Positions 2,951-24,456 of a DNA stretch of 24,616 nt are shown piece by piece. The stretch covers positions 1 through 24,616 of IMG/VR virus record IMGVR_UViG_3300025929_000047; one strand, written 5' to 3'. The translations under genes and the position numbers were made by a program. Position 1 is the first letter of the stretch. The number at the start of each line of letters is the position of its first letter. Origin of the DNA: a virus. Under the pieces are notes generated by a model. The model had not been told where the DNA came from, made no database searches, and saw only the letters and a program-made list of their open reading frames with translations.

Positions 2951-3925
2951 GTGACCATGATTGCCAACCGGACCGCAACCGACATGCTTGGGGAGTTCGG
3001 GCTCAAGTTCGCTTCCCTGCCGCCGGGAGTGGAGCGCTACACCGTCACCATCGACGCGGAAACAGCCACACGGCTCCTCAACGCCAACGAGAACAACCGG
3101 CGGCTGAGTCAGACGTTGGCCGTGTCCTATGCCCGCATGATGGAGACCGAAGGCGGCTGGCCCTACGTCGGTGACCCGATCCGGGTCGACAAGAACGGCC
3201 GTCTTCTGGACGGCCAGCATCGCCTGAGGGCTGTTGAGTTGTGCGGTGTGCCGCTTGTGGTGGACATCATCCTGGGTTTGGAGCCTGAGACCCAGGACGT
3301 GATGGACACCAACTCCACCCGCAAGGCCACCCAGCAGGTTGCCATGGCGGATATCAAGCACGCCGTGGCGGCGGCCCCAGCGGCGCGTCTGCTCATGCGG
3401 TGGGGCTACAGCGACGATCCCAACATGGAGACGTGGGCGCTGGCGTCAGACCTGTACGCCCCGGCCCGCCCGGAGGTCACTCGCTGGTGCCGGGCGCACA
3501 AGGACGCGATTGAGCGTTCCGCCGGCCTGGCGTTCGCCGTGTTCAACGCGTCGGGCGTCAAGCCATCGGTGGCGGCGGCCGTCCACTTCCGGGCCGCGCG
3601 GATTGACGTGCACTGGGCAGACAAGTTCCTGTTCTACCTCCGCACGGGGGAGGACATGAGTGCCGGCAACCCGATTCTGTCGCTGCGCAACAAGCTCGTG
3701 CGGCAGAAGCGGGAATCGATCCGGGAGAAGGCGGACGATCAGCTGTACCACGTGTCGAACGCGTGGAACCTGTGGGTGGAGCGCAAGGCGAACCTGAAGC
3801 TTCAGCTTCCGCGCACGCCGATCAAGGCCGGCAGTGTGATCGCGCTGTCTCCCCGGATTCTCCTGGAGAAGCCGGGCGAGGGTGAGCGTTTCGTGTGGAC
3901 TCCGAAGGAGAAGGGCGAGAAGTGA
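2951..3925 (+). CDS. ParB-like (ParB/sulfiredoxin fold) protein
   Basis: This 324-residue protein starts at GTG 2951, chosen because AAGGAG at 2937-2942 lies 8 bases upstream. A longer in-frame form from 2879 would overlap the previous gene and lacks this signal. Residues ~30-125 match the ParB-like fold: a segment on the preferred arguments of the cell (VDKNGRLLDGQHRLRA, with DGQHRLRA at 87-94), then a QDVMDTNSTRKA segment. Phage members of this family have been annotated as ParB-like nucleases or transcription modulators. The remaining ~190 residues are helical and unassigned. The gene's stop overlaps the next GTG start. No ParA partner is visible, so genome partitioning is unlikely to be its only possible role. 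Confidence 0.75.
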   Translation: MTMIANRTATDMLGEFGLKFASLPPGVERYTVTIDAETATRLLNANENNRRLSQTLAVSYARMMETEGGWPYVGDPIRVDKNGRLLDGQHRLRAVELCGVPLVVDIILGLEPETQDVMDTNSTRKATQQVAMADIKHAVAAAPAARLLMRWGYSDDPNMETWALASDLYAPARPEVTRWCRAHKDAIERSAGLAFAVFNASGVKPSVAAAVHFRAARIDVHWADKFLFYLRTGEDMSAGNPILSLRNKLVRQKRESIREKADDQLYHVSNAWNLWVERKANLKLQLPRTPIKAGSVIALSPRILLEKPGEGERFVWTPKEKGEK

Positions 3926-4146
3926 CGACGGACATCACGCTGTCCGTCTTGGGCGTGATGCTGGTGACGCTCCCGTACGTGCGTTGGTACGTGCGGGAGC
4001 GTCGTCACGCTGAGGACAGGATCACGCACGCGGAGTTCATGGTGTGGCTGGACGCATTGGAGCGTGCCGGCCGGGAGCAGGCGCGGGACATTCGTACGGT
4101 GGTGATGGTGGCGCGGTATCGTCAACTCGTCAGTTCAAAGGGTTGA
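3922..4146 (+). CDS. Small N-terminally anchored membrane protein
   Basis: This 74-residue product starts at the GTG that overlaps the ParB-like gene's stop (GTGA). One hydrophobic segment (residues ~5-20, ITLSVLGVMLVTLPYV) is followed by a charged, probably helical tail facing the cytoplasm. No family is recognised. Its 3' end carries the TTGACA of the next promoter, and an unusually stable stem-loop lies inside the gene (3964-4008). Confidence 0.6.
   Translation: MTTDITLSVLGVMLVTLPYVRWYVRERRHAEDRITHAEFMVWLDALERAGREQARDIRTVVMVARYRQLVSSKG
3964..4008 (+). other. Long stem-loop inside a coding region
   Basis: GTGACGCTCCCGTACGT (3964-3980) can pair with 3989-4008 (ACGTGCGGGAGCGTCGTCAC), leaving an 8-base loop, one G-T type mismatch and a 3-base bulge. 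This is far stronger than ordinary coding sequence usually shows. There is no T-tract, so termination is not indicated. Confidence 0.5.
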
Positions 4147-4171
4147 CAAGCCGAAGTGAGTCGGGTAATCT
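4143..4171 (+). promoter_or_regulatory. SigA-type promoter of the recombination operon
   Basis: TTGACA (4143-4148) and TAATCT (4166-4171) are separated by 17 bases. The -35 overlaps the stop codon of the preceding gene. The expected transcript start (~4178) leaves a leader of about 30 bases carrying AAAGGAGG at 4193-4200. This is the last strong promoter seen before Lsr2, so it may drive the whole run of genes from 4207 to 9204. Confidence 0.75.
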
Positions 4172-4206
4172 TCTTGTTGTCAGGAACGCACCAAAGGAGG
4201 CACCCG

Positions 4207-4587
4207 ATGACCGCCACCGTCGAAACCGTCATCGACTCCCCCGAGTTCGTTTTCCGTTACCGGGTGGACGACATCCTGAACGCGGAATTCATGGACTACG
4301 CGGAGACCGACCTGACGGGTCCGGCAGTGAAGGTCCTGGGCCGACTCCTCACGGAAGAATGGCACCAGCGCGGGCACCGGATGATCCCAATTCGGCTCGA
4401 ACTGTTCAACCGCCTTTACGAAAGGGAGAACCGGATCAGCCCCGCCGTTCTCCCGGATCCCGTCACCTCAAATGAAGTATGGGATCTGGCAGTGGCACGG
4501 CTGGAATTCGACGACATCGTGGTTGAAGCCGGACTCACCCGCGAATACGCCACATTCGTTCGAGCACAGCCGGACTACAACCAGTAA
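4207..4587 (+). CDS. Hypothetical phage protein
   Basis: This 126-residue protein starts at ATG 4207, 6 bases after a near-perfect AAAGGAGG (4193-4200). It is the first gene behind a strong promoter and should be well expressed. The sequence is soluble and acidic-to-neutral, with helical stretches such as LTGPAVKVLGRLLTEEWHQR, and no Cys cluster or membrane segment. I do not recognise the family. Being first in an early operon whose later genes are DNA enzymes, it may act early on the host or on phage DNA, but nothing in the sequence proves that. Confidence 0.65.
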   Translation: MTATVETVIDSPEFVFRYRVDDILNAEFMDYAETDLTGPAVKVLGRLLTEEWHQRGHRMIPIRLELFNRLYERENRISPAVLPDPVTSNEVWDLAVARLEFDDIVVEAGLTREYATFVRAQPDYNQ

Positions 4588-4595
4588 GGAAAACC

Positions 4596-4991
4596 GTGAG
4601 CAACAGCTGGCATCACGCGGTGTCCGCCTCACACAAGTGGGGCGGCACTCCGCATGACTATCTGAAAATCGAAGAGTTCATCGACGGCAGCAAAGCCGCG
4701 ATGGGCGACGTCCGGCACCGTGCCCTCTACCATCACACGGCCGGCGTGTTCCTGGTGGAAAGGATCTTCGGACCCACCATCACCATCGTCAAGCGCAACG
4801 GCACCGGAACCTACGAAGTGCCCACCCGCGAAATCGCGGAACGGCACATCGTGGAAGACCTGGGCTACATTCCGTCCCCGTCCGACTGGCTGACCCGCAT
4901 GGACGTTCAGCCGTGGATGGGCGGCCGACTGTCCCGCTACGTCGGCCGTGAGGACTTCCTCACCGTCACCATTCAGGAAGGCAAGAAGTGA
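4596..4991 (+). CDS. DUF6915-like phage protein
   Basis: This 131-residue protein starts at GTG 4596, with AAGGA at 4586-4590 overlapping the previous stop. The pattern SxWHHAVSxxxKWGG, DYLKIEEFIDGSK, RHRALYHHTAGVF, ERIFGPTI, HIVEDLGYIPSPSDWL and QPWM matches a small conserved phage/bacterial family that I know as DUF6915. That family has many conserved His and Trp residues and no established function. The clustered histidines (HH near residue 6, RHRALYHH near 41-48) could bind metal. The stop overlaps the next start (GTGA), so it is probably co-translated with the acidic protein. Confidence 0.7.
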   Translation: MSNSWHHAVSASHKWGGTPHDYLKIEEFIDGSKAAMGDVRHRALYHHTAGVFLVERIFGPTITIVKRNGTGTYEVPTREIAERHIVEDLGYIPSPSDWLTRMDVQPWMGGRLSRYVGREDFLTVTIQEGKK

Positions 4992-5518
4992 CCAAGTCGG
5001 ACACGTTCGAAGGGCGTCCCATCACCGGGGATCTCAGTTACCGCGACTACACCGCCGTGGAACAGTGGGACCGTACCCGGTTCCTGGAACTGCTGGACGC
5101 CGTGCTCACCGCGCCCGACGTGGCGGCCGTCCGGTGGCGTCAGTGGGTCCCGTCGTTCAACGACGGTGACCCGTGCGAGTTCACCATGGGTGAGTTCTAC
5201 CTCAAGCCGGCCAGTCTGCCGGACGCCACGGCGGACCCGGACGACCCGGAAGACGACGCGGACGAAGACATCTACGACGACGACGACACCGAATATGGCG
5301 ACGGGTTCCGCGACGCGAACAACCTGTCCCGCGCCTGGGACGACGCCACGTGCAAGTACGTGGACCTCCCGAACCCACACCCCGGCGCGGAACCGCTCCG
5401 GGAGCTGAACCGCAACTCCGGACACTTCGAATCCGTAATCCGGGAGAGCTTCGGGGACCACGCCATCGTCACCGCGACCCGCGACGGATTTAACGTGGAG
5501 TTCTACGAGCATGACTGA
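4988..5518 (+). CDS. Acidic hypothetical protein
   Basis: This 176-residue protein starts at GTG 4988, overlapping the previous stop. An aromatic-rich N-terminal part (RWRQWVPSF, CEFTMGEFYL) is followed by a strongly acidic stretch at ~residues 79-103, a near-continuous run of Asp and Glu, and then a C-terminal part ending in GFNVEFYEHD. Acidic tracts can mimic DNA or bind basic proteins, but that is inference. No family is recognised. It overlaps the nuclease gene by 8 bases. Confidence 0.65.
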   Translation: MTKSDTFEGRPITGDLSYRDYTAVEQWDRTRFLELLDAVLTAPDVAAVRWRQWVPSFNDGDPCEFTMGEFYLKPASLPDATADPDDPEDDADEDIYDDDDTEYGDGFRDANNLSRAWDDATCKYVDLPNPHPGAEPLRELNRNSGHFESVIRESFGDHAIVTATRDGFNVEFYEHD

Positions 5519-6404
5519 TGTCAGCGCAGACCACGGCCGGGTTCCGGCCCGGTCGTGGTCGGTGTCCCAATCGCACGCCATGGCGGAATGCCCACGCGCC
5601 TGGTGGTTCCGGTACGTGGCCGCCGCGACGCCGGCACAGGCGCGCCCGGTGAAGCAACTCATCGGCTCCGCCATCCATGCCGGCCTGGAAGCCGCGTACC
5701 GGGCGGCGAAGGCCAACACGTCGTGGACCGGGCGCACCATGGCCGACACGTACGGACTGGCGGCCCTGGCGGCGTTCAACGCCTACTGGGACGCCAACGG
5801 GACCGGTGTTCGCGAGTACGAACGCGAAGACGCGGAACGGCTATTGCTGGAACTGCTGGACGTGCTGACCGTTCCCCGCGCCTGGGAAATCCTCGGGGTG
5901 GAGGAGAGGTTCAGTCTCCGCTTGCTCCCTCAGGACGACATGCCGCCGGCCACCGTGCACGGTGTGATGGACCTGGTGTTCAACACCAGCGTGGCGGACA
6001 AGAGGTCCATTCACATTCGGGACTGGAAGTTGGGGCCGGTGCCGACGAACGAGACGGAGCTACAGCGCAACACGCAACTGTGCACGTACGCGGCGGCGGC
6101 CGTGCACCGCTGGCCGTGGGTCAAACGGATCACGGTCGGCCTGTACTCGATCCGGGAGCGCCGCGAGATCAGCACGGAACTGCATTCGGACTCGATCGAG
6201 CACGCGGCGAAGGAACTGGCCTATGACGCGGAAACGGCCCGGTTGCGGGCCGAACGCAAGTGGGTGGAGCCGACGAAGGGCGAGCACTGCGGCGGCTGTC
6301 GGTTCCGGTCCTACTGCCCGGTCACGGAGCGGATGAAGTCACCAGTCGTAGATGGTGTCGACGTCAAGGGGGAACGCGCTCGACTGGCCGCGTTGCTTCG
6401 CTGA
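5511..6404 (+). CDS. PD-(D/E)XK exonuclease, Cas4/RecB-like
   Basis: This 297-residue protein has the Cas4/AddB/RecB-nuclease layout. An N-terminal Cys (C27 in ECPRAWWFRYV) is followed by GSAIHAGLE with H56, then G-V-M-D (D154) and RDWK (D171, K173) as the D...DxK catalytic core, and a downstream Q-x-CTYAAA helix (Q ~188). The C-terminus has C260, C263 and C269 in CGGCRFRSYC. Together with C27 these four Cys are placed to hold a [4Fe-4S] cluster, as in Cas4. The expected role is metal-dependent exonuclease processing of DNA ends during phage recombination or replication. There are no CRISPR repeats or Cas1/Cas2, so a CRISPR role is not supported. The UvrD-like helicase follows directly, an AddB/RecB-like pairing. 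Confidence 0.85.
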   Translation: MTDVSADHGRVPARSWSVSQSHAMAECPRAWWFRYVAAATPAQARPVKQLIGSAIHAGLEAAYRAAKANTSWTGRTMADTYGLAALAAFNAYWDANGTGVREYEREDAERLLLELLDVLTVPRAWEILGVEERFSLRLLPQDDMPPATVHGVMDLVFNTSVADKRSIHIRDWKLGPVPTNETELQRNTQLCTYAAAAVHRWPWVKRITVGLYSIRERREISTELHSDSIEHAAKELAYDAETARLRAERKWVEPTKGEHCGGCRFRSYCPVTERMKSPVVDGVDVKGERARLAALLR

Positions 6405-6434
6405 GAATCCGTTACACACCAAGGAGTGCACACC

Positions 6435-8135
6435 ATGGAAGGCACCGCGTTCACCGGTGAGGCGTTGCGCGTGTTCGGGCCGCCCGGCACAGGCAAGACC
6501 ACCTATCTCGCCCGGGAGATTTACAAACTGATCCGCGACAACGGAGCGGACTCCACGCTGATCTGTTCATTTTCCACAACGGCGGCCCACGCCATCGTGC
6601 AGAAGTTCACCGAAAACAACGCGGTGTATCGGCCCAACAAGAAGATGGTCGGCACTTTGCACAGCCACGCCTACCGCGCCACTGGGCACAGCAGCGTGGC
6701 CCTGGACCCGAAGGTGATCGAGGACTGGAACAACCAGTCCACGTTACGGATCACAGCCTCACGGCGCGACGGCGGCGGCGACACCGGAAAGTTCGTCACC
6801 GATCCGACGAAGGCTGTCACCGGAGACGATCACCTCGGGTGCCTGGATCTGTTGCGCGCCAAAATGGTTCCGATCGAGGAGTGGCCGCGTAACATCCTCG
6901 ACTTCGCCACCCGTTGGAATTCATGGAAGCGGGATGTCGTCGCGGTCGACTTCTCCGACATGATCGAAAGCGCGTTGGAACGCGCCCGAGACGGAGAGCA
7001 CGCGCCCGGGAATCCGCAGTTCATCATCTCCGACGAGTCGCAGGACATGACTCCGCTGGAAACAGCGCTCGTGCTGGCATGGGGCCAACACGCGACTCGA
7101 ACCGTGCTGGCCGGCGACGACGACCAAGCGATCAACGGATGGCGTGGCGGCAGCCCGGATCCGATGCTGATGTTGCACGGCGACAACGTGTCCGACCACA
7201 TGCTGACGAAGTCGCACCGGGTGCCGGAGAACGTGCGGCTGATCGCGGAGGACTGGATTCGTCACGTGTCGTTCCGGAAGGACAAGGCGTACACGGCACG
7301 GACCCGGCTGAACGGTGACACGGACACGGGCGAGATCATCGGCGGTACCGCGTTCACTGTGCCGGAAAGCCTGGGGAACCCGGATCTGGTGGTTCGAATC
7401 AACCAGGATCTGGACGCCGGCAAGGACGTCATGGTGGTTGCGTCGTGTAATTACATGTTGGAGCCGGTGATTAGCAACTTGCGGGCGGAAGGTGTGCCGT
7501 TCCACAATCCGTACCGGCCGGCGGAAATGCGGTGGAACCCGTTTGGCGGCGGCCGGGATGACGTGCAGTCCACGGCGGAGCGTGTCTACCGTTACTTGGT
7601 TCTGGCTGACCGGGATTGGACTGGTGAGGATGTTCAGTCGTGGATGGAATTGGTGAAGATCAAGGACGCCGGCCTGGTGTCGAACGCGAAGCGGATTGCG
7701 GCGGCGTGGGGCCGTGATCCGGTTCCGTATGAGGACATCGTGACCTTGTTCAAGACGGAGGAGGCGTTGGACTGGGCGACGCAACCGGACCCGGATTGGT
7801 TGGCGTCGTGCCTGTTGAAGGCAAAAGCGGATTACGCGACGTATCCGCTTGAGGTAGCTCGGCAGCGCGGGCACGCGGCATTGAATGAGCAGCCGCGCGT
7901 GGTGGTGGGCACGATTCACAGTGTCAAGGGCGCGGGCGCGGACGTCGTGTACCTGGCCCCCGATATTTCGAACGCCACTCGTGTGTCCATGCAGCAGCAG
8001 CGGGACAGCAAGGACGAAGTGATCCGCCAGTTCTATGTGGGCATGACTCGCGCGAAGGAATCGCTTCGCGTGCTCGCCCCAAACGGCAATATGTACATGA
8101 ACGGGTTGATTCCGACTCGATTGGAAGCGCTGTGA
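6435..8135 (+). CDS. UvrD/Rep-family superfamily 1 DNA helicase
   Basis: This 566-residue protein starts at ATG 6435, 8 bases after AAGGAG (6421-6426). The order of motifs is clear: Walker A GPPGTGKTT (15-23, K21), Walker B DESQD (200-204), motif III GDDDQAINGWRG (227-238), motif IV-type KSHRVPENVR, TIHSVKGAGADVVYL, and VGMTRAK (535-541) with the motif VI arginine. Proteins of this family unwind DNA 3'-5' using ATP. The length is shorter than full UvrD (~720), as usual for phage versions. It follows a Cas4/RecB-like nuclease, and the two may form a helicase-nuclease pair. The next gene starts inside its stop (GTGA). Confidence 0.93.
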   Translation: MEGTAFTGEALRVFGPPGTGKTTYLAREIYKLIRDNGADSTLICSFSTTAAHAIVQKFTENNAVYRPNKKMVGTLHSHAYRATGHSSVALDPKVIEDWNNQSTLRITASRRDGGGDTGKFVTDPTKAVTGDDHLGCLDLLRAKMVPIEEWPRNILDFATRWNSWKRDVVAVDFSDMIESALERARDGEHAPGNPQFIISDESQDMTPLETALVLAWGQHATRTVLAGDDDQAINGWRGGSPDPMLMLHGDNVSDHMLTKSHRVPENVRLIAEDWIRHVSFRKDKAYTARTRLNGDTDTGEIIGGTAFTVPESLGNPDLVVRINQDLDAGKDVMVVASCNYMLEPVISNLRAEGVPFHNPYRPAEMRWNPFGGGRDDVQSTAERVYRYLVLADRDWTGEDVQSWMELVKIKDAGLVSNAKRIAAAWGRDPVPYEDIVTLFKTEEALDWATQPDPDWLASCLLKAKADYATYPLEVARQRGHAALNEQPRVVVGTIHSVKGAGADVVYLAPDISNATRVSMQQQRDSKDEVIRQFYVGMTRAKESLRVLAPNGNMYMNGLIPTRLEAL

Positions 8136-10524: not shown

Positions 10525-10979
10525 TCGTCACCGTCCAATTGCTTGGTGGCAACGTCCTCCATGCGTTTCAGGTCCACCGTGATGTACACGAAACGAACGA
10601 CGCACGCCACGGCGAACAATCCTGTAACCAAAGCCGGAAGTGTCCCCCGGACACCGACTTGCGCAAAAAGCGCAAGAGCGTATGCCAGCATGAGGCAGCC
10701 AAGAAGAATGATGCCGACACGTTCCACGAGAAGTGACATCACTCCTCCCCTGGCTACGCCGACCAAACTGATGACGCCCCCCGCGAGTAAACCGCTATAC
10801 CAGCACAGCACTTCCCAATGCGGCAACGTGTTGGTGACCGCATTTGCCGACGCGTTCGGCGCGAGAAGACCGATAGCTCCAGCGAAAGCGCACGCGCACA
10901 GCATCAGCACCTCGAACGGGTTGCGGCCAGACCGCACCAGAACCGGCACACCGCCGCGCGCCATGATCACCCGGGTCAC
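10521..10979 (-). CDS. Multi-span membrane protein of the lysis cassette
   Basis: This 152-residue protein starts at a GTG overlapping the endolysin stop (GTGA). About four hydrophobic segments are visible: LMLCACAFAGAIGLLA, WYSGLLAGGVISLVGV, RVGIILLGCLMLAYALALFA and LVTGLFAVACVVRFVYI. It is immediately downstream of the endolysin, so a holin or holin-like role is plausible. No family is recognised from sequence. Confidence 0.6.
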   Translation of the reverse strand: MTRVIMARGGVPVLVRSGRNPFEVLMLCACAFAGAIGLLAPNASANAVTNTLPHWEVLCWYSGLLAGGVISLVGVARGGVMSLLVERVGIILLGCLMLAYALALFAQVGVRGTLPALVTGLFAVACVVRFVYITVDLKRMEDVATKQLDGDE

Positions 10980-12004
10980 CCGTTGACGTGGTAGGTCAGC
11001 GTCCCAGTGTGGCCGGCAAACGCGGCGTCCACAATAGACGTCACCTCCGCTGGGGTCGCGCCCGCCGCGCCGGCCGAACCGAGCCCGGCCAATGCGGTAT
11101 CCCGGGCGCGTACCGCCGCGTCCAGGGCCACATAGCCGGCGTAGGCGGCCCCGGGCAGTCCCAGCACGGAGCCGGTCCCGTCGCCGTTGTATGTCTTGTC
11201 CTTGGCCTGCACGTCAGCCCACGTGGCCGGCTGGGCGTATCCGCCACCCAGCAACAGCAGCACATTCGCGTTGGTGGTGGCCTTGTCGCTCAGGTTGCCG
11301 GTGGCGGGCTCGAAGGTGTCGATATTGCACACGAATTGAAACATGATGTCTCCTGGGGTTGATGCCACTCCGTCGGAAATGAGTTGTGTGTCCCCCACGA
11401 GCATGGACGCGAGGGTGAACGGGGCCACAGTGGCGTCCCGGTCCACCGTCCCGGCCACACCTGGCACGGTTCCGGCGTCGGTGTGCTGATGCAACGCCAG
11501 ACGCGGATGTGACCAACCTGGATTGCCGGGGTCGCCGTTCCACGCTGCGATCCACAGAAACACGTTGTCGTCGGCCCACGACATGTCTAGGACGTTGCGG
11601 AACCAGTCGGTGTTGCTGTACACCGCGATTTTCGGCTGTCCACTGTAAATGCGGAACGCGTGGATGAACCGGCGAGTGAAGTCGTTCGCGGTCGCCCGCA
11701 ACTCCGCCGCTTCAAGATCGAGCATCGGCACGAACGAGCCGTTCAGCAACAGCGCCCGCGCCCGGCATTCCGACGCGAAGAACTGGGCCTGCGCCTCCGG
11801 GGTGGTGTCGCTACGCGCGAAGTGGTAGCCGCCCGGTGCGATGCCCGCGTTCCGTGCCCCGTTGGTCTGCCCCGACGCGTCTGGGGACACGTAGCCGGCG
11901 GATTCGGTGACTTTGATGGACGCGAACGTGATGCCGTTGCCGCGCACCGCGCCCCAATCGGACACGCTGTTCCAACCGGACACGTCGATTCCATATTCAG
12001 TCAT
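10976..12004 (-). CDS. Endolysin, GH25 muramidase
   Basis: This 342-residue protein starts at ATG 12004, 7 bases after CGGAGG. Residues 1-~205 are a GH25 (Chalaropsis-type) lysozyme: GIDVSGW with D7, SIKVTE, PGGYHFAR, then MLDLE giving the catalytic D96-x-E98 pair, and KIAVYSNTDWF. These enzymes cleave the N-acetylmuramic acid/N-acetylglucosamine bond of peptidoglycan. No signal peptide is present, so it relies on a holin. The C-terminal ~135 residues are not a familiar wall-binding repeat. They include MFQFVCNIDTFEPATGN and an Ala/Gly-rich end. Its stop overlaps the next gene. Confidence 0.9.
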   Translation of the reverse strand: MTEYGIDVSGWNSVSDWGAVRGNGITFASIKVTESAGYVSPDASGQTNGARNAGIAPGGYHFARSDTTPEAQAQFFASECRARALLLNGSFVPMLDLEAAELRATANDFTRRFIHAFRIYSGQPKIAVYSNTDWFRNVLDMSWADDNVFLWIAAWNGDPGNPGWSHPRLALHQHTDAGTVPGVAGTVDRDATVAPFTLASMLVGDTQLISDGVASTPGDIMFQFVCNIDTFEPATGNLSDKATTNANVLLLLGGGYAQPATWADVQAKDKTYNGDGTGSVLGLPGAAYAGYVALDAAVRARDTALAGLGSAGAAGATPAEVTSIVDAAFAGHTGTLTYHVNG

Positions 12005-15354: not shown

Positions 15355-18300
15355 TCACCCCGATCCGAACCCGGTGTAACTGGTGGCGTTGTTGATATTG
15401 CGGATTCCGTATCGGAGCAGTTCCTGTTGGAGTTCGCGAACGAACTGCTGTGTGGTGCGGATGTTTCCTTGCACGGTGATAGGGCCGATGATGGTGACTT
15501 GTTGCGCACCGGCCCCGCCCCGGTTGATTCCGGTAGCGAGCCCGCTGGGGCCGGTGAAGTTACCGGTCATGGTCATGTCACCGATGTTGGCCGCGCCGAC
15601 GATTTGGCTGGTCGTCTTCTTGGCGAGGTCGATCACGGCTCCGGCTTTGGCGCTGATTCCGTTTCCGAGTCCGTGCATCAGGTCTTCACCGATAGCGTGG
15701 AACACGCGGGATGGCGAGTGTGAGTCGAATCCCGCTTTGACGCCGGCAATCAGGTTGGAGATGAACCCGGTCACGGTGTCCCAGACCCAGCCGATAGCGG
15801 AGCTGATACCATTCACCAAGCCGGTCAGGATGTCGCGGCCGGTTTGGTACAGCCAGTTTCCGGCATTGCGGAAAAATCGCATGATCCCGTCGGGGAACGT
15901 CGCGCTCCACCACGCTTTGACGGATTCCCATCCGTTGTTGATGCCGTCTTCCGCGCCGTGGAGGATGTCCTTGCCCTTTTGGACAAGCCAATCTCCGGCG
16001 TCGTCAAAGAAGCTGACGACCTTGTGTGGCACCGATTTCATCCATGTCCACACGTCCTCGGCTTTTTGGCCAATGGCGTCCAGCCAGCCCAGGACCATGT
16101 TTTTTCCGGGGCCGGTCAGCCAGTTTTTCGCGTCGGACATCAGGTTGGACACGTTGTTGGGTAGGTCGTTGAACCATTGCACGGTGCTGTTCCAGGCGTT
16201 GGCGATAGCGCCGGTGAACGCGTCCCACGCTTCTTTGCCCTTTTTCGCCAATGTTCCGATCAGGTAGCCGATCGCAAATCCGGCCTTTTCGGGAAAATGG
16301 GTGAGCAGCGTGATAGTGTTGTTGATTCCGTCAGAAATGAACTTGGTGAAACCGTCCCAGGCGCTTTTGGCGATGTCAGCCAGTTTGCTTCCCAGCGCCT
16401 TGATTCCGTCCCATACCTTCTGAGGAATCTGCTTCACCCAGTCAATGAATTCGCCGATCTTGTCGCCGATCCAGTCGATCGCCGTTTCGAACGCATTCTT
16501 GACCGTGTTCCACAAATCCACGAAGAAATCGGAAATCTGCTGCCAGTGATTGACGATCTCAACCACGATGATAGTCAGGATGGTGATCACCGCGATAACA
16601 GCGAGAATCACCGCCGTGACCGCCAGCATGACGCCAATCTCTGGCAACATGGCGATATTCACAATCACCATGGCGGCGGCGAACGCCAAGGCGGCCACCG
16701 TGAGAATACCGATCGCAATAGCCACGGCCTTGATCAACGTCGGGTGCTCCGACAGCCAATGTGCCGAGTCCGCCAACGCTCCGAGAACCTTCGACAGAAT
16801 TGGCAGGAACACCGCGCCCAGCTGAATCGCGACCGCACCGAGAGCGGCTTTCGCCTCATCCAGCTTCTGGTTGAACGTAGACTGGATGTCAGCCCATCCC
16901 TTGACGCTTCCATCCGCGTCTTTTGTGGATGCGGCAATGTCGTTAACGGCCTTGTTCGTGGCCGCCGTGTTCTGGCCCGTCAGCATCAGGGCGACGTTCA
17001 GCGACGTGGCGTTGCCCGTGGCGCGTTGCATGGCCTGGCTGTAGGACTGGGCGGCTGGGCCACCTTGCTTCAAAATGTTGTTGAAGCCGTCGGCCTTGTT
17101 CGCCAGCGCGGCGAACTGGGTTGCCATGCCTTGCTGGTCGGTCGGCAACGCCTTAATCGCCTGCCGCCAGTCGTTGACCGTGATCTGTCCATTGAGGAAC
17201 GCTGTTGCCGTTGCCTGCAACGACTTCGGCATGTTTTGCAGCATCACTTGCAAGTCTTGCGAGGCTTGCTTGGACTCATTGAACGCGGAGATCAGGACCT
17301 TCCCGGACGGCCCCATCTTGTTCATGATCGCTTGGCTGATGTCGTTCAGCGTGCCTGTGAGCCCTCGCGTGGCAAGCTTGTCCGTCAGATCGGACGCTGT
17401 GATTCCAATCTGCGCCAAGTAACTCGTCATGTCCGATGACGGCTTTTGCATCTCCCGCAACGCGTTCGACAGATTCTGAGACGCCTGGTCGGCACTCATG
17501 CCATGCGCGGTCATCTCCGCCAACGCGCCTGCAATGTCGTTGAACGGGACATTCATGGCTGACGCCAGCGGAAGCACGTTGTGCAGTGCGCCCGTGAAGT
17601 CCTCGAACGTGGTGCCGGCGTCACCGACGGCCGTCACCAGCTTGGACATGACCGTGGCCGCGTCCCCGACTTTCGGGCCGTAGTCGTTCATCGTGGCTGT
17701 CAGGCCTTTAGCCACGGTGTTCAAGTCCGCGTTTTCCAGCTTCGCGCCCTCGGCGGCGGCCTTCAGCGCGTCCAGGCCAGCCTGAGCGTGGTAGCCCATG
17801 GACTCGATGAAGTAGCCGGCGTGCGCGAGGTCCAGGGAGCTGTCTCCAACCTGTCCGGCCATCTGGAGAAGCCCGTCACGGACCATCTGGAGCTTGTCTG
17901 CGGACTCTCCGGCGGAGCTGACCAGGCGTTGGGTGGCGGACTCGAAATCGCCTGACATCTTCGCTGTGCCGGCGATGACCAGCGCGCCGGCCGCGCCGAC
18001 CAACGCGCTGACCTTCGCCATGGTCGCCGCGTTCGAGGCGGCCGTTTTCGCGGCGTCCTCTTCGGCTTTCGCGGTCGCCGTGCCGATGGCCACTGTGGAC
18101 GCTTCGGCCTTGGCTGCCATGGCCTCGAAGTCCAGGGCCAGTGTCTTCGTCTTGACCGACATGGCTTCGAAGTCGGCGGTGGTCTGCAACGCCATTTCGT
18201 CGGATGCCGCGCCAACCGAGATCAGCGACGCGTTCATGCGTGCGATTTCGGCTTCAACGTCGGCGGTGACAGCGGCGACCTTGGCGGCCATCTCTTCGCC

Positions 18301-18387
18301 GGATACGGACGCTTCGGTGAAGCCGCCGATCAATTGTCCGGTGTCGGCGCGGAGCAGCACATAGAGATCGCTGATCTGTTCGGCCAC
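15355..18387 (-). CDS. Tail tape measure protein
   Basis: This 1010-residue protein is the longest in the window and follows the tail chaperones. The N-terminal region is coiled-coil-rich. Residues ~150-350 match the TP901-type tape-measure core (FESATQRLVSSAGESADKL, then LLQMAGQVG, GALAEMTAHGMSADQASQNL). Hydrophobic segments at ~549-612 could insert into the host membrane during DNA delivery. Trp-rich repeats follow, then the family's common end motif HSPSRVFHAIGEDLMHGLGNGI near ~900. By the usual rule of about 1.5 angstrom per residue, the tail would be roughly 150 nm long. The GTG start has only a weak AGGGG ribosome binding site. It ends 3 bases before the minor tail gene. Confidence 0.95.
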   Translation of the reverse strand: MAEQISDLYVLLRADTGQLIGGFTEASVSGEEMAAKVAAVTADVEAEIARMNASLISVGAASDEMALQTTADFEAMSVKTKTLALDFEAMAAKAEASTVAIGTATAKAEEDAAKTAASNAATMAKVSALVGAAGALVIAGTAKMSGDFESATQRLVSSAGESADKLQMVRDGLLQMAGQVGDSSLDLAHAGYFIESMGYHAQAGLDALKAAAEGAKLENADLNTVAKGLTATMNDYGPKVGDAATVMSKLVTAVGDAGTTFEDFTGALHNVLPLASAMNVPFNDIAGALAEMTAHGMSADQASQNLSNALREMQKPSSDMTSYLAQIGITASDLTDKLATRGLTGTLNDISQAIMNKMGPSGKVLISAFNESKQASQDLQVMLQNMPKSLQATATAFLNGQITVNDWRQAIKALPTDQQGMATQFAALANKADGFNNILKQGGPAAQSYSQAMQRATGNATSLNVALMLTGQNTAATNKAVNDIAASTKDADGSVKGWADIQSTFNQKLDEAKAALGAVAIQLGAVFLPILSKVLGALADSAHWLSEHPTLIKAVAIAIGILTVAALAFAAAMVIVNIAMLPEIGVMLAVTAVILAVIAVITILTIIVVEIVNHWQQISDFFVDLWNTVKNAFETAIDWIGDKIGEFIDWVKQIPQKVWDGIKALGSKLADIAKSAWDGFTKFISDGINNTITLLTHFPEKAGFAIGYLIGTLAKKGKEAWDAFTGAIANAWNSTVQWFNDLPNNVSNLMSDAKNWLTGPGKNMVLGWLDAIGQKAEDVWTWMKSVPHKVVSFFDDAGDWLVQKGKDILHGAEDGINNGWESVKAWWSATFPDGIMRFFRNAGNWLYQTGRDILTGLVNGISSAIGWVWDTVTGFISNLIAGVKAGFDSHSPSRVFHAIGEDLMHGLGNGISAKAGAVIDLAKKTTSQIVGAANIGDMTMTGNFTGPSGLATGINRGGAGAQQVTIIGPITVQGNIRTTQQFVRELQQELLRYGIRNINNATSYTGFGSG
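15830..16280 (-). repeat. Tandem Trp-rich repeats in the tape measure
   Basis: At protein level, four degenerate copies occur. The last three begin DAKNWL, DAGDWL and NAGNWL, each followed by a G-K/R segment and ending in a W-x-W/WW stretch plus a Pro. The spacings are 44 and 45 residues. An earlier weaker copy begins KAGFAI, 51 residues upstream. The regularity suggests the repeats arose by duplication and help set tail length. Confidence 0.55.
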
Positions 18388-19584: not shown

Positions 19585-20757
19585 TCAGTAAGCGGTGGAC
19601 TGGAAGTTCTTCAGCACGACCGCGACGGCTCCGGTGTCGGTCGAGTTGTAGATACCCGACAGGCTGAAATCAGCCTGGACGTAGTTGGACGCCAAATCAC
19701 GCTTTCCCTTGAAGTATCCGGACTTCGACATGGTCAGCGCGAGCGACGCGCCCGATCCGTCGGTGCCGGACGCCGGCTGCTGAAGCAACGCGGTGGTGAC
19801 AGTCTGGGTGTAGTTCAGATACAGGTTCAGGTCCGTCTGGTTCTCGAAGATCGCTTTGTACGTGCCGTCGACTTCCAACGCGCCCTGGAAGATTTCGCGT
19901 GGCGCTTGGATGCCGTCCGAGGAGTGAACGGGTTCCACGGCACGTTTCACCGTCAGATCGTAGGTAAGACCCCGGGTGGACGCGCCTCCCGCGTTGGTCA
20001 TGTTCCATTCCCAACCCAGCATCGGCGGAAGCGCCGTGTAGGTCGGAGTCATGGACGACTGAACAACCTGAGGAAACGTCGTGTACTTGAGGTCCAGGGT
20101 GACCGACGCCTTCGGGTCGATCTTCACGGCAAGATCCGACATTGCCGCGCCCGAGTACGAAACCGTCTGGGTCGTGTCGTACACGGTCAGCGAGTACGTG
20201 GCCTTCGTGGACGGGTTGGCCGACTGGTTGAACGTGTGCGTGGACTGGGCCACGATCGGTTCCGTCGCACTGTGCGCCTTCGTCAGGCCCACTGTCTGAC
20301 CGACGACCGTGGTCACCGTCAGGTTGTACGGGCCAGTGCCGGTCACGGCGGTCACGTACGCGTATTCGAGCGTCGCGCCCGTGCCCACCTGGATGTAGGT
20401 CAAGGCGGCAATGGACGCGGTGGACGGCAGCGTGGTCGCGCCGATGGCGGAACCACCGGTGGCGACCGTCGTGGACACACCGGCCGTCACCGTGTCCGGG
20501 CCGATGATGCCCCGAAGGAAGTGGCCCAACAGGTCCGGATACGCCAGGACGGAGATATCCCACGTCGCGTGCACCGGACCTTGGTACATGCCCTGAAGCA
20601 TGGTGTCGTTGGCGCGGTACGACTCGTCCTTAAGCTCGGTGTAGACATCCTCGAAATCAGCCTTGGTGAACGGAATGTACACAGTAGGGGCCACATACGT
20701 TCCGGCTACGGTTTCCTTTGCCAGGCCCAAAATCGCAAGGCGGGAAAGCTGGGTCAC
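19585..20757 (-). CDS. Major tail (tube) protein
   Basis: This 390-residue protein starts at ATG 20757, overlapping the previous stop. Its N-terminus LAILGLAKETVAGTYVAPT and later KADFEDVYTEL, GPVHATWDISVLAYPDLLGHFL fit the siphovirus tail tube family, as does its place before the frameshifted chaperones. Residues ~95-165 look like an inserted beta domain (SAIGATTLPSTASIAALTYI, then QVGTGATLEYAYVTAVTGTG), a module often added to phage structural proteins. This makes it longer than simple tube proteins. The tube domain resumes around residue 175. Confidence 0.85.
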   Translation of the reverse strand: MTQLSRLAILGLAKETVAGTYVAPTVYIPFTKADFEDVYTELKDESYRANDTMLQGMYQGPVHATWDISVLAYPDLLGHFLRGIIGPDTVTAGVSTTVATGGSAIGATTLPSTASIAALTYIQVGTGATLEYAYVTAVTGTGPYNLTVTTVVGQTVGLTKAHSATEPIVAQSTHTFNQSANPSTKATYSLTVYDTTQTVSYSGAAMSDLAVKIDPKASVTLDLKYTTFPQVVQSSMTPTYTALPPMLGWEWNMTNAGGASTRGLTYDLTVKRAVEPVHSSDGIQAPREIFQGALEVDGTYKAIFENQTDLNLYLNYTQTVTTALLQQPASGTDGSGASLALTMSKSGYFKGKRDLASNYVQADFSLSGIYNSTDTGAVAVVLKNFQSTAY

Positions 20758-20981
20758 TTGTCGTCCACCTCCTCATCGGTCGTGGCCGACGGGGCGGCCC
20801 GCTCTACTTCGTCTTCCTGCGCCGGCTGAGCCGGTTCGTCCTCAGTGGACTGTTCGTCGGTGACCTCTTCAAACCCGGCCAACAGTTCGGGATGTTCGAT
20901 CGTGTCGCCCGGAAGCACCTCGGCGGGCGGATCGAGCGTTGGCAGGACGAGAGGACTGCCCGACACGTTGCGCTGCAACAC
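20754..20981 (-). CDS. Small acidic protein before the major tail gene
   Basis: This 75-residue protein starts at GTG 20981, with GGAGG 5 bases upstream; earlier in-frame ATGs lie inside the preceding gene. The N-terminal part (SGSPLVLPTLDPPAEVLPGD, then TIEHPELLAGFEEV) resembles short beta-rich actinophage proteins that sit between head-tail and tail-tube genes. The C-terminus is rich in Glu and Asp. It overlaps the tail tube start by 4 bases (ATGA). No function is established. Confidence 0.6.
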   Translation of the reverse strand: MLQRNVSGSPLVLPTLDPPAEVLPGDTIEHPELLAGFEEVTDEQSTEDEPAQPAQEDEVERAAPSATTDEEVDDK

Positions 20982-21003
20982 GCGTGCCTCCGGTTTTTCC
21001 TTG

Positions 21004-21504
21004 TTAGATAACGACTTCCAAGTCGTCCGCCTCATAGTTGGCGGTGCCGGACAGGAAACCACGGTCCATCGTGGTCTCTGGCGGGTCAAAATCGATGTTG
21101 ATCTCGGGGTTCCGGCCGGGTGCCTCGGTGGCGGACAGGAACCGTCCACCGTGGGTCTTGTCGCCCAACGTGCCCCGAAGTCGATCGATCAGAAGGTCCA
21201 CGGCCGCGTCGAAATTGGCCTGCTCCGTCTCGGCGATCATCGTTCCCGTTGTGGTGGAACCAATACGCCAGAACAGCTTCAGGCGGAACGTGTATCGCGG
21301 CAGCTTCCGTTGGTTGGACCATCGAATATCGGTGATCCTGGTCCGCGTGACGTAGATGCCGTTCAGGTTGTAGTTCGGCGTCCGAGGCCAGTACGCCTGA
21401 ACCAGGTCCCATGGGCCGCCGTTCGTCTTGAGCAACGCGGGCAGTCCGTCACCGAATGAAGACAGCCAGTCCGCTTCACGTTGCACGGCGTCCGATGTGG
21501 ACAT
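21004..21504 (-). CDS. Putative tail terminator protein
   Basis: This 166-residue protein starts at ATG 21504, with GGAGG inside the end of the preceding gene. It has an N-terminal helix (ADWLSSFGDGLPALLK), a central beta-rich core with RYTFRLKLFWRIG and ETEQANFDAAVDLLIDRLRG, and a C-terminal strand region. Size, fold pattern and position just before the tail tube gene fit the family that caps the tail and joins it to the head. No sequence motif proves it. Confidence 0.6.
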   Translation of the reverse strand: MSTSDAVQREADWLSSFGDGLPALLKTNGGPWDLVQAYWPRTPNYNLNGIYVTRTRITDIRWSNQRKLPRYTFRLKLFWRIGSTTTGTMIAETEQANFDAAVDLLIDRLRGTLGDKTHGGRFLSATEAPGRNPEINIDFDPPETTMDRGFLSGTANYEADDLEVVI

Positions 21505-21510
21505 TCGCCC

Positions 21511-22041
21511 TCACCTCCGCTTCCGCTTCTTGCGATGCCACACACGGTGATGACGGACGTAGCGATGGATGATGATGCGCGTGCGGCGGCGGCGAACTTT
21601 GGTGTGCAGCAAAGACTTTCGGCTGCGATAGGTGGTCGAGGAAATCAGCCTGTGCGTGCCACTGTGGAACTTGTGCGTGCGCAGACCACGAGCCATGACA
21701 TAGCGGTGAAACGCTCCCTTGGCCGGACGGCGCAAGTTGCCCAGGGACTTTGCCGACAGGTGTCGGGTGCCGGTTGTGGCGCGCGGACGGCGGGTGCCGC
21801 GTGCCGCGTCGCGCTTGCGGAGCGCGGCCCCGATCTTCGCGCGGGTCGCGGCGGTTGGGGAGTGCCCCTTGTGCGGATGCTTCTTACCCTTGAGCGCCTT
21901 GGAAATCTTCGCTTTTTGCGCGGCGGACATCCGGTGCCCCTTGTGGCCGCCGACATGGCGCTTGCCGCCCCACCCGTGGCCTTTCATGCGGGCGAACAGC
22001 TTGGCGCGGGCAGTGGGCGACATAGGGTAACCGCGCGCCAT
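21511..22041 (-). CDS. Very basic NUMOD3-like protein in the head-tail cassette
   Basis: This 176-residue protein starts at ATG 22041, 7 bases after GGAG, just past the adaptor's stop. It is packed with Lys, Arg and His. Three repeats of the NUMOD3 kind occur: MSPTARAKLFARMKG (7-21), MSAAQKAKISKALKGKKH (38-55) and SPTAATRAKIGAALRKRD (61-78). NUMOD3 is the DNA-binding module usually attached to GIY-YIG or HNH homing nucleases, but no nuclease motif is visible. The second half is Arg/His-rich and ends RKKRKRR. It occupies the position where a head-closure (stopper) protein is normally encoded. It may bind packaged DNA or be a remnant of a mobile nuclease gene. Confidence 0.65.
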   Translation of the reverse strand: MARGYPMSPTARAKLFARMKGHGWGGKRHVGGHKGHRMSAAQKAKISKALKGKKHPHKGHSPTAATRAKIGAALRKRDAARGTRRPRATTGTRHLSAKSLGNLRRPAKGAFHRYVMARGLRTHKFHSGTHRLISSTTYRSRKSLLHTKVRRRRTRIIIHRYVRHHRVWHRKKRKRR

Positions 22042-22043
22042 GG

Positions 22044-22715
22044 TCAGCTCCGCATGTACGGCGACAGCCACGACACGGCCAATGCCTCAAGCTTGTCCGG
22101 GTCGTGTCCGTGCTGGGATTGCAACATCGGGTCCAGTTCACGGCACGCGACGGAGGCGGCCATGTACTTGCACGCGCGGACCAGGTCAGCCGGAACCGTG
22201 CTGTAGCCGGCGGAGTACGTCACCCGGGCCAGGGAGCCAATAGGAATGAACTTGCCCAGGTTGAACCACACATGACCTGAGTCAACCTCGGGTCCTTGAA
22301 ACTGTGTGGCCACAAGGTTTTCTGACCCGCCGTAAGACCGCACGATCATCAGGGAGATGTCCGAATAGGTCCAGTACTCGGGGTAGAGAGGCGCGTACTC
22401 GTTCAGCCACAAGTGGCGCACGAGCGTGGACGCGCCCATGGCGTACGCGTATGACCGGCCCAGCGCGCCCTGAAGGTCCAGAGGCAAGTTCGCCGTGTCG
22501 GTGTACTCATCTGGGTCGATCCCTTGGCACCGATGGGTTTCGAAGTGACCAACGAACGGGGCCAGGCGGCGCTGACACTCGGTTTCGCACGCCCGGGTGG
22601 CCTCAACCATGATCTCGTTCAGGGCGTCGTCGGTGAAGCTTCGCACCAGGTCCGCGAACGCCCCTTGTTTCATCTGCGCTGCCGTGGCAAGCGGCGTGGG
22701 CGAATCCAGTGCCAT
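22044..22715 (-). CDS. Head-tail adaptor (connector) protein
   Basis: This 223-residue protein starts 3 bases after the preceding stop. It has an N-terminal helix region (FADLVRSFTDDALNEIMVEA, then TRACETECQRRLAPF) and later IPIGSLARVTYSAGYSTVPADLVRACKYMAASVACREL. This GY..VP.DL..A...LA pattern is typical of phage head-tail adaptors that attach below the portal. Position two genes after the capsid gene agrees. Confidence 0.75.
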   Translation of the reverse strand: MALDSPTPLATAAQMKQGAFADLVRSFTDDALNEIMVEATRACETECQRRLAPFVGHFETHRCQGIDPDEYTDTANLPLDLQGALGRSYAYAMGASTLVRHLWLNEYAPLYPEYWTYSDISLMIVRSYGGSENLVATQFQGPEVDSGHVWFNLGKFIPIGSLARVTYSAGYSTVPADLVRACKYMAASVACRELDPMLQSQHGHDPDKLEALAVSWLSPYMRS

Positions 22716-22718
22716 GGC

Positions 22719-22982
22719 TCACTCCGTGAAGGTGGAGACGTCGATTCCCTTGTTGGCAACGCTCTTGGCTTTAAGTGGCTTCGGCGACTCGCTGATCAGC
22801 TTCTGCGCCGGTCCCTTCGGAACCCTTGGCGTCACAGGGACTTCCGCCACTTCGCTGAACCCAGCGTCCTGGATCCGCAACAGCTGACGGGCCTGTTCCT
22901 CTGGCACGTCGACAACCGCACCGTCGGTCTCCCACACGTTCCCGAACGTGTCGGAACCGGCATGTTCCTTGCGTAGCAACAT
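22719..22982 (-). CDS. Small head-region protein
   Basis: This 87-residue protein starts at ATG 22982, 7 bases after GGAGG. It resembles short proteins encoded directly after the capsid gene in many actinophages, with EHAGSDTFGNVWETDGAVVD (a beta element) and a basic, probably disordered tail (SESPKPLKAKSVANKGIDV). Its role is not established. Its ribosome binding site may pair with a hairpin loop upstream (see 22989-23048). Confidence 0.6.
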   Translation of the reverse strand: MLLRKEHAGSDTFGNVWETDGAVVDVPEEQARQLLRIQDAGFSEVAEVPVTPRVPKGPAQKLISESPKPLKAKSVANKGIDVSTFTE

Positions 22983-22988
22983 CTTTGA

Positions 22989-23048
22989 ACCTCCATTGTG
23001 GACGCACCCCGCCGACACGGGGAGGTCAGTCCATAGTCGGCGGGGTGC
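22989..23048 (-). promoter_or_regulatory. Hairpin whose loop can pair with the ribosome binding site
   Basis: On the minus strand, GCACCCCGCCGAC (23048-23036) pairs perfectly with 23016-23004 (13 bp). The 19-base loop contains ACCTCC (23026-23021), which is complementary to GGAGGT (22994-22989), the ribosome binding site of the next gene. The result could be a pseudoknot that hides the site. It could equally be an mRNA-stabilising hairpin after the capsid gene. Confidence 0.45.
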
Positions 23049-23050
23049 AC

Positions 23051-23085
23051 GGTGCCGGGCGGCTTGCTGGTGGCCACCCGGCACC
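23051..23085 (-). other. Second hairpin after the capsid gene
   Basis: GGTGCCGGG (23051-23059) pairs perfectly with CCCGGCACC (23077-23085) around a 17-base loop. It lies just after the capsid stop (23092) and next to the 23004-23048 hairpin. There is no T-tract on the minus strand. Tandem hairpins here may slow polymerase or protect the capsid mRNA. Confidence 0.5.
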
Positions 23086-23091
23086 GGGTCA

Positions 23092-24456
23092 TCACACAGC
23101 CGTGTTGACGCGGTACAGACCACCCAGGAACTTCGGACCACGCACGGCGAGCACGGTGTCCGAAATAATGGCGTAGGGCAGGCTGTCTGGGCTGGTTGTC
23201 GTCGGGTAGACGTCCAACGGTGTCAGCTCGCGAACGTACGGCCGGCAGATGTTGTCGTAGTCGCGAGACATCAGGTAGACGTTCTCGTTTCCTACGGCCG
23301 CCGGGAACTTGTTCGTGTTCGTTCCCTGGTAGGTCGCTGGGAACGTGGCCGGCTGGGTCGAACCGTTCTGTGGGATCAGGGTTGCCCCAGTGTCCACAAT
23401 GGACGTTGTGAGGAGTGGCGTGATGCCGTCGGCCTGGAAACCAACGTTCGCGTCCACGTACCCCAGAAGGGTTTCCGTGCCCGTCGAAGTCGAGCGGTAC
23501 ACCTTGTAGAGGATTGGCTGAAGCCCGTCCAGGCCCGTAGGCGTGGAGAACGACAGCGTCACCGTCGACGTGGATCCCGTGGTGGCCTGGGAAACCTCCG
23601 CCGAGGCCGCGATTTCACCCTGGCGGGCGACAACCGCCGACACCTTGTAGGAGTAGGTGGCCGCCGCGAGCGTTCCGCCTGTTGTCGCCGTTGCCGATGT
23701 CACCGTGCCCATCTGAATGGAACGAGTGCTCATGAACGACGACTTGATCAGCGGAATGTCACGGTAGGTCGGCACGATCAGACCGGCCGCGACCTCAACA
23801 CGGTCCATGAACCGCTGCTGGTTGGTCAGAAGCTGAGCGATCTTCGACACGGCGGTGTTGCTCATGACCAGCTGCCATGTGGAGTCGAACACCGACATCG
23901 CGGCGTTGGTTTCCACCATGTCGATCAGTTCGTCCAAATGTGCCAGGGTCAGCGTCGCGCCGGCCTTGTCCTGGGCGTTCTGGTTTCCGCCGCTGTAGGT
24001 GTTGATCAGCGAGTCCAGGCCATCGAACTGTGGGTACGGTCCGAACTGAGTGGAGCCCGCGTTTCCCCACAGGAGAGCGGTCTCAATGTCCCAGTAGAGG
24101 CCACGGATGGACCCCTCGATTTCACGTGCTCGCAAGTCCCCGATTACCTGGCGAGTCACTTCCTGGGCGTAGCCGGTGATTGCGCCGACTACCTGAAGGT
24201 GCTTGATGCCAAACGAGTTCTGTACGTAGGTCGAGTTCGACACGACCCGCGCGCCACCGTCGACAACGAACCCGCCGTTCGGGTTCACGGTGCGCTGGTT
24301 GAAGTAATAGGTGTCGCTGTTCCACTTCTGGGACGGAATCGACCGCACCAGAGGGGAGTAGCGCCGCTGGTACTCCAACAGCATCGGGTCGATGATCTTG
24401 GGGATAAGGGCTGACGCGCCGGCAGCGGTCAACGCCTCCCGAAGCTCAGAAGGCAC
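23092..24456 (-). CDS. Major capsid protein with inserted Ig/FN3-like domain
   Basis: This 454-residue protein starts at GTG 24456; upstream in-frame reading hits a TGA with no other start. The core looks like an HK97-fold coat protein: YSPLVRSIPSQKWNSDTYYF, then VIGDLRAREIEGSIRGLYWD, ALLWGN, LDELIDMVETN, and a C-terminal LTPLDVYPTTTSPDSL...YAIISDTVLAVRGPKF. Residues ~248-336 form a likely FN3/Ig-type insert (TYSYKVSAVVARQGE, PILYKVYRSTSTGTETLL), probably exposed on the capsid surface. No long N-terminal scaffold arm is present, so a separate scaffold is expected upstream. A strong terminator lies just before the gene. Confidence 0.85.
   Translation of the reverse strand: MPSELREALTAAGASALIPKIIDPMLLEYQRRYSPLVRSIPSQKWNSDTYYFNQRTVNPNGGFVVDGGARVVSNSTYVQNSFGIKHLQVVGAITGYAQEVTRQVIGDLRAREIEGSIRGLYWDIETALLWGNAGSTQFGPYPQFDGLDSLINTYSGGNQNAQDKAGATLTLAHLDELIDMVETNAAMSVFDSTWQLVMSNTAVSKIAQLLTNQQRFMDRVEVAAGLIVPTYRDIPLIKSSFMSTRSIQMGTVTSATATTGGTLAAATYSYKVSAVVARQGEIAASAEVSQATTGSTSTVTLSFSTPTGLDGLQPILYKVYRSTSTGTETLLGYVDANVGFQADGITPLLTTSIVDTGATLIPQNGSTQPATFPATYQGTNTNKFPAAVGNENVYLMSRDYDNICRPYVRELTPLDVYPTTTSPDSLPYAIISDTVLAVRGPKFLGGLYRVNTAV

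Follow-up and report, generated by a model that had tools for sequence, protein, structure and literature searches.

The core proteins of adenoviruses and the P6.9 protein of baculoviruses are arginine-rich, protamine-like virion proteins that neutralise packaged DNA; in tailed phages this neutralisation is usually ascribed to small cations. Among phages, T4 encodes the internal proteins IPI, IPII and IPIII. These small basic proteins are tied to the assembly of the head, are accessory and poorly conserved, and can be replaced by other basic proteins (PMC9026906). In the tailed archaeal virus HFTV1, DNA-condensing proteins of the head or neck could be no more than suspected in a cryo-EM study (PMC12494034). 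The Pfam motif NUMOD3 is known in tandem units from GIY-YIG and HNH homing endonucleases (I-TevI, PDB 1i3j; Seg-type enzymes; HNH phage nucleases), and published surveys have recorded homing nuclease genes near terminase, portal and capsid genes (PMC1564403; PMC10448857). It has also been annotated as a conserved domain of plant ClNUM1, a stress gene with no virion link (PMC11201747). The DNA-binding domains of homing nucleases have been reused without the nuclease in plant AP2 and in CapR, a satellite-encoded repressor of phage capsid expression (PMC10448857).

The NUMOD3 motif, basic phage head proteins of the T4 kind and the reuse of homing-nuclease DNA-binding domains are thus known already. 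The locus described here carries the same motif as a conserved polycationic array in the neck operon of a large clade of actinobacterial phages. No description of such an array was found in the open-access papers searched, with subscription papers mostly outside that search, which agrees with the initial annotation, to which no described system of this form was known.

Genomic context of the array gene

The window analysed here is the whole stretch of viral DNA, 24,616 nucleotides in length. Its head-tail genes are read from the minus strand in the order major capsid protein (MCP), small gene, adaptor, array, terminator, 79-aa protein and tail tube, with the following assignments:

23092..24456, minus strand: major capsid protein (phrog_752, 3.6e-43; SU10_MCP, 8.9e-10)
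22719..23069, minus strand: small conserved gene that separates MCP from adaptor
22044..22715, minus strand: head-tail adaptor (PHROGs match, phrog_442)
21511..22041, minus strand: nuclease-free NUMOD3-array protein, 176 aa, net charge +53 (open reading frame call, Pfam, composition)
21004..21504, minus strand: tail terminator of gpU-like fold, 166 aa (AlphaFold pTM 0.81; Foldseek)
20754..20993, minus strand: small conserved gene between terminator and tube, 79 aa
19585..20757, minus strand: tail tube protein (Phage_tube_2, Pfam 2.4e-13)

The ATG of the array gene lies at 22041, and the stop codon of the adaptor ends at 22044, 3 bases before it; the coordinates first given for this reading frame were exact. 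Searches of solved structures with terminator and adaptor profiles returned no match, and the identity of the terminator was taken from a fold search instead, in which Foldseek matched the 166-aa protein best to terminators of phage tails and to neck proteins (R4C, lambda gpU, T5 p142). Because of this fold, the array gene can be placed at the address where many siphophages keep a stopper. The initial annotation had spoken of a head-closure position among head-tail joining genes, and as an address, between adaptor and terminator, this was correct.

Other genes of the window were also noted. A PD-(D/E)XK nuclease gene adjoins a UvrD-type helicase gene at 5511-8135 (plus strand), and the two may be a recombination pair. 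A glycosyl hydrolase family 25 lysin was found at 10976-12004 (minus strand) and a tape-measure-like protein (PhageMin_Tail) at 15355-18387 (minus strand).

Sequence and predicted structure of the array protein

The array protein contains 33 arginines, 21 lysines, 17 histidines, one aspartate and no glutamate, with a pI of about 12. The Pfam NUMOD3 profile (PF07460) matched it at E = 1.7e-9 and 37.9 bits, compared to a curated gathering cut-off of 20.4. Pfam and PHROGs searches detected no nuclease domain, a homing-endonuclease PHROGs family reaching only E 0.084. Its parts are as follows:

21982..22017, minus strand: first repeat helix, residues 9-20 (AlphaFold/DSSP; unit aligned in alignment A1)
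21832..21939, minus strand: Pfam NUMOD3 match, residues 35-70
21892..21924, minus strand: second repeat helix, residues 40-50 (AlphaFold/DSSP; within the Pfam match)
21802..21852, minus strand: third repeat helix, residues 64-80 (AlphaFold/DSSP; unit aligned in A1)
21514..21696, minus strand: Arg/His-rich C-terminal tail, residues 116-176 (alignment A2; pN)

It was therefore confirmed that a NUMOD3-array gene occupies this slot. The nuclease-free NUMOD3 repeats and the highly basic character with an Arg/His-rich tail, both read initially from the sequence, were upheld by these searches and by the composition. The description as a run of repeats holds in part: with a model that we derived from repeats of the family itself, three units were recognised, and relatives have 2-9, but the run is modest in the window copy, since a single stretch passes Pfam NUMOD3 unaided. 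Among close relatives, the pattern HRLI...VRHHRVW is conserved in the C-terminal tail (alignment A2).

From a shallow alignment of 22 rows, AlphaFold gave a model of the array protein with low overall confidence (pLDDT 64, pTM 0.21), comprising one short helix per unit, extended linkers, and two or three weaker helices in the tail region. A globular or stopper fold was looked for in this model and none was seen, only isolated short helices. In a profile search of solved structures, the sole DNA-binding match was a segment of the I-TevI DNA-binding domain, HKHSDITKSKISEKMKGKK, at E 0.43, which is non-significant alone. Two PPAR-gamma constructs ranked above I-TevI and were discarded as artefacts because their alignments begin in the His tag.

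Distribution and inheritance

We assembled 103 distinct adaptor loci, from viral contigs and bacterial genomes, in which adaptor and terminator could both be placed. The loci were pooled from searches with the adaptor (which carries no bias to array loci), the capsid and the array itself. A NUMOD3 array lay between adaptor and terminator in 67 of the 103, a value that is not an unbiased frequency since array-based and adaptor-based searches were pooled; in most array loci no other gene shared the interval. The recurrence of the same gene in the same slot in 67 loci argues that its placement is not due to chance. The array was found just past the terminator in 6 loci, the slot was empty (less than 100 bases from adaptor to terminator) in 21, and a longer gap without NUMOD3 was present in 9.

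On a tree of the 103 adaptors, built by a quick method, presence or absence of the array required about 6 changes, and all five slot states required 12 changes compared to a shuffled mean of 34. The arrays on the far side of the terminator fell into two separate groups of this tree (L086/L088 and L079/L114/L164/L170). The array is stably inherited with occasional loss or relocation, unlike a scattered mobile nuclease gene. Frequent loss in relatives, along with absence from the virion, had been named at the outset as evidence against the initial reading; the array is indeed missing from 30 of the 103 loci, yet these are clustered by clade and not sporadic.

In a whole subclade, the adaptor is joined directly to the terminator and the array gene is absent. 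We found no very basic reading frame near the head-tail module of this subclade, and a PF07460 search of 23 empty-slot records gave no match; the controls were also unmatched and many records are fragments, so that absence of the array elsewhere in empty-slot phages is not proven. Four large empty-slot records, searched for a substitute polycation, contained just a few short, chance-like minus-strand reading frames. With neither array, basic reading frame nor NUMOD3 match, the gene appears dispensable in this subclade. We also asked whether the small gene after MCP compensates through its basic tail and set this aside, the median tail charge being 0 with the array and +1 without it, no clear difference.

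Among 200 sampled Streptomycetaceae genomes, only two NUMOD3 matches were detected, both in an adaptor-array-terminator arrangement within a prophage-like locus. Named strains also have contigs with the array, among them Streptomyces olivoverticillatus CECT 3266, Kitasatospora aureofaciens CPD02 and Catenulispora pinisilvae NH11. When the array, adaptor and terminator proteins of the window were searched against a phage collection, none had a match; the capsid gave only five far matches, and repeat-only queries mostly annotated homing nucleases; no cultured isolate of the array clade was found in that collection. The array protein is carried by many uncultured actinobacterial phages between two head-tail joining genes.

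Charge, selection and slot contents

We then compared the composition of the family. The 73 array proteins have a median length of 207 residues, a median net charge of +63 (range +42 to +83) and a median of 0 acidic residues, with 2-9 repeats per array most commonly spaced by 22 or 24 residues. Their 340 repeat units contain 0.11 acidic residues each vs 1.38 in 21 units of seven nuclease-type phage proteins, a small comparison set counted with a simple unit pattern written around the arrays. A Pfam scan of 22 aligned members gave a NUMOD3 match in 21 and a nuclease family in none.

Across eight close relatives, the array gene contained no stop codons and had a pN/pS of 0.44, compared to 0.105 (adaptor) and 0.28 (terminator). 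Constraint is stronger on the repeats and on the tail than on the linker that separates them, mean pN being 0.23 in the tail vs 0.39 in the linker. The initial suggestion of a decayed module was not supported, given this purifying selection and the inheritance of the gene with the phage lineage.

Some clade members without NUMOD3 still have a polycation in the slot, of 73 aa (L198), 99 aa (L143) or 34 aa (L023). L198 nests among array-bearing lineages on the adaptor tree, and by eye its GLRHH segment resembles array tails. From these sequences, charge appears to be the lasting property, and the NUMOD3 repeats appear to be its usual supply.

Several variants of the slot were observed. In L189 (2319-2912), it holds a Thr/Lys-rich basic stretch fused to an additional domain. 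In L115 (1549-2286), units of the form AAQVAAAKANLAKARAAxKGKPR are interleaved in the array as a second repeat type beside NUMOD3. An enlarged slot in L065 carries a 502-aa opposite-strand gene beside the array (3501-5009, minus strand), resembling a cargo insertion; next to the arrays of L033, L065, L070, L076 and L115 there are again opposite-strand genes, of smaller size. In the far relative L040 (2869-3411), a protein that by eye resembles virion morphogenesis or tail completion proteins directly follows the adaptor.

Arrays in other lineages and their origin

Arrays in other lineages were retrieved with the array as query, so they serve as illustrations and do not form a random sample. 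Three unrelated contigs (L068, L093, L094) have a nuclease-free array between TerL and portal, and in L122 one directly follows a phrog_442 adaptor. In L062, the array lies between a gene weakly like Mu gp36 (adaptor-like) and a Neck1 gene; in L008, L011 and L104, it stands just before an adaptor-position gene; in L081, it precedes a tail-tube-like gene; and in L097, its neighbour is a terminase gene of the opposite strand. The array of L085 is by primase and QueE genes, away from head-tail genes, and those of L121 and L090 had no assigned neighbourhood. It was noted that L121 (1395-2923) contains two adjacent long NUMOD3-like arrays whose units retain Glu (SPETRAR), a departure from the main family.

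The TerL-portal interval is also occupied by nuclease-type NUMOD3 proteins, namely in Streptomyces phage Dagobah and Xanthomonas phage CP1. Both had been considered as cultured nuclease-free arrays and were used as controls instead, since HNH-like and GIY-YIG-like regions were recognised by eye in their translations; L123 and L125 were likewise read by eye as nuclease types and used as controls. Because nuclease-type proteins share the TerL-portal position, the address alone is no proof of virion function.

The most likely ancestor of the array is the portion of a homing endonuclease that binds DNA. With nucleases found near packaging genes, the likely history is that homing nucleases settled there, lost the nuclease and kept the DNA-binding part. 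An intermediate keeping the nuclease domain in the adaptor-terminator slot was not found among the loci examined.

Proposed function and alternatives

We consider it reasonably probable that a domesticated homing-endonuclease DNA-binding module serves here as a late, accessory, polycationic DNA-binding protein in packaging or head completion. The observed pattern suggests that homing-endonuclease repeats increased in number, were cleared of acidic residues and became fixed among the late head-tail genes. The product would be a string of short DNA-binding helices with Gly/His/Lys linkers and a polycationic tail, and it would most likely bind the phage's own double-stranded DNA, largely non-specifically. 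By analogy with I-TevI, the helices may lie in the minor groove while the tail neutralises phosphates. The high positive charge alone could drive binding of any nucleic acid, RNA included. The protein would be expressed late with the connector proteins and would act while heads fill and join tails. Its part would be that of an accessory factor akin to a protamine: it would either travel into the head or neck along with the DNA, or hold or condense DNA at the portal. It is possible that the array protein is packaged near the portal. A wider proposal, which we put forward tentatively as the less probable one, is a tailed-phage protamine: a virion protein condensing or pinning packaged DNA, derived from homing-endonuclease repeats and inherited vertically in the head-tail operon of a large actinobacterial phage clade, with similar recruitments next to portal and adaptor genes of other lineages. 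If packaged, it would mean that the head or neck of some tailed phages contains proteins dedicated to condensing DNA.

In the strongest rival reading, which we regard as rather unlikely, the DNA-binding protein is made late but acts within the infected cell, as a regulator, a nucleoid disruptor or a shield against host nucleases, or is ejected into the next host; a shield, if packaged, would be ejected with the DNA like T4 IPI. CapR and plant AP2 show that homing-nuclease DNA-binding domains became regulators before (PMC10448857), and the T4 internal proteins are basic, with IPI blocking a host restriction enzyme (PMC9026906). However, near-total loss of acidic residues and 2-9 repeats suit non-specific and not operator-specific binding, and in several lineages the array is tightly linked to packaging or connector genes.

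The array might instead be the DNA-targeting half of a split system, placing or protecting a cut made by a separate nuclease such as a packaging HNH enzyme or terminase. Arrays do lie beside packaging genes in some lineages, and a passage of PMC10448857 cites the HK97 HNH nuclease as cooperating with terminase at cos. We judge this quite improbable: among the annotated head-tail genes the array has no nuclease gene as a neighbour (the terminase region being outside the window), and acidic-free units suit low specificity.

A decayed, functionless homing endonuclease left at its former insertion site is even harder to credit. Dagobah and CP1 have nuclease-type NUMOD3 proteins at comparable places, and homing nuclease genes cluster by terminase and capsid genes (PMC10448857), but the array gene shows pN/pS 0.44 without stop codons in eight lineages, charge is conserved in 73 arrays, the slot state follows the adaptor tree and no nuclease remnant was found in the 22 members scanned. 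As a present function, a relic is largely refuted, and the ancestral nuclease origin is likely.

The least probable reading takes the array protein for the clade's stopper (head-completion protein), unusual in its sequence. It would suit a mostly sole gene between adaptor and terminator, but the structural role suggested initially is not supported, given the fold-less model (pTM 0.21), the 21 empty slots with a subclade whose adaptor and terminator are adjacent, and the 6 loci with the array beyond the terminator.

The array family is directly testable, being common in its clade, with countable repeats, natural loss lineages and presence in named strains.

Comparison with known systems

Relative to adenovirus core proteins and P6.9, the array offers a functional comparison only, and no homology. 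With the T4 internal proteins, it shares the traits of being highly basic (net +42 to +83), accessory and swapped for other polycations (L023, L198, L143). The T4 proteins differ in possessing capsid-targeting propeptides cut by gp21; the array consists of NUMOD3 repeats with no sequence relation seen, and no shared N-terminal propeptide was evident among array proteins in alignment A1.

Likeness to the homing endonucleases extends to the I-TevI helix segment that aligns with the array profile (E 0.43). The array differs from these enzymes in having no nuclease domain in the members scanned, in the near removal of acidic residues and in its vertical inheritance within a virion operon. CapR and AP2 resemble it in reusing a DNA-binding domain without the nuclease; they belong to other domain families and have regulatory roles, whereas the array is polycationic and located in a structural operon. 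Homing-nuclease DNA-binding domains, known as regulators, here seem to have been turned into a polycationic late virion-assembly protein.
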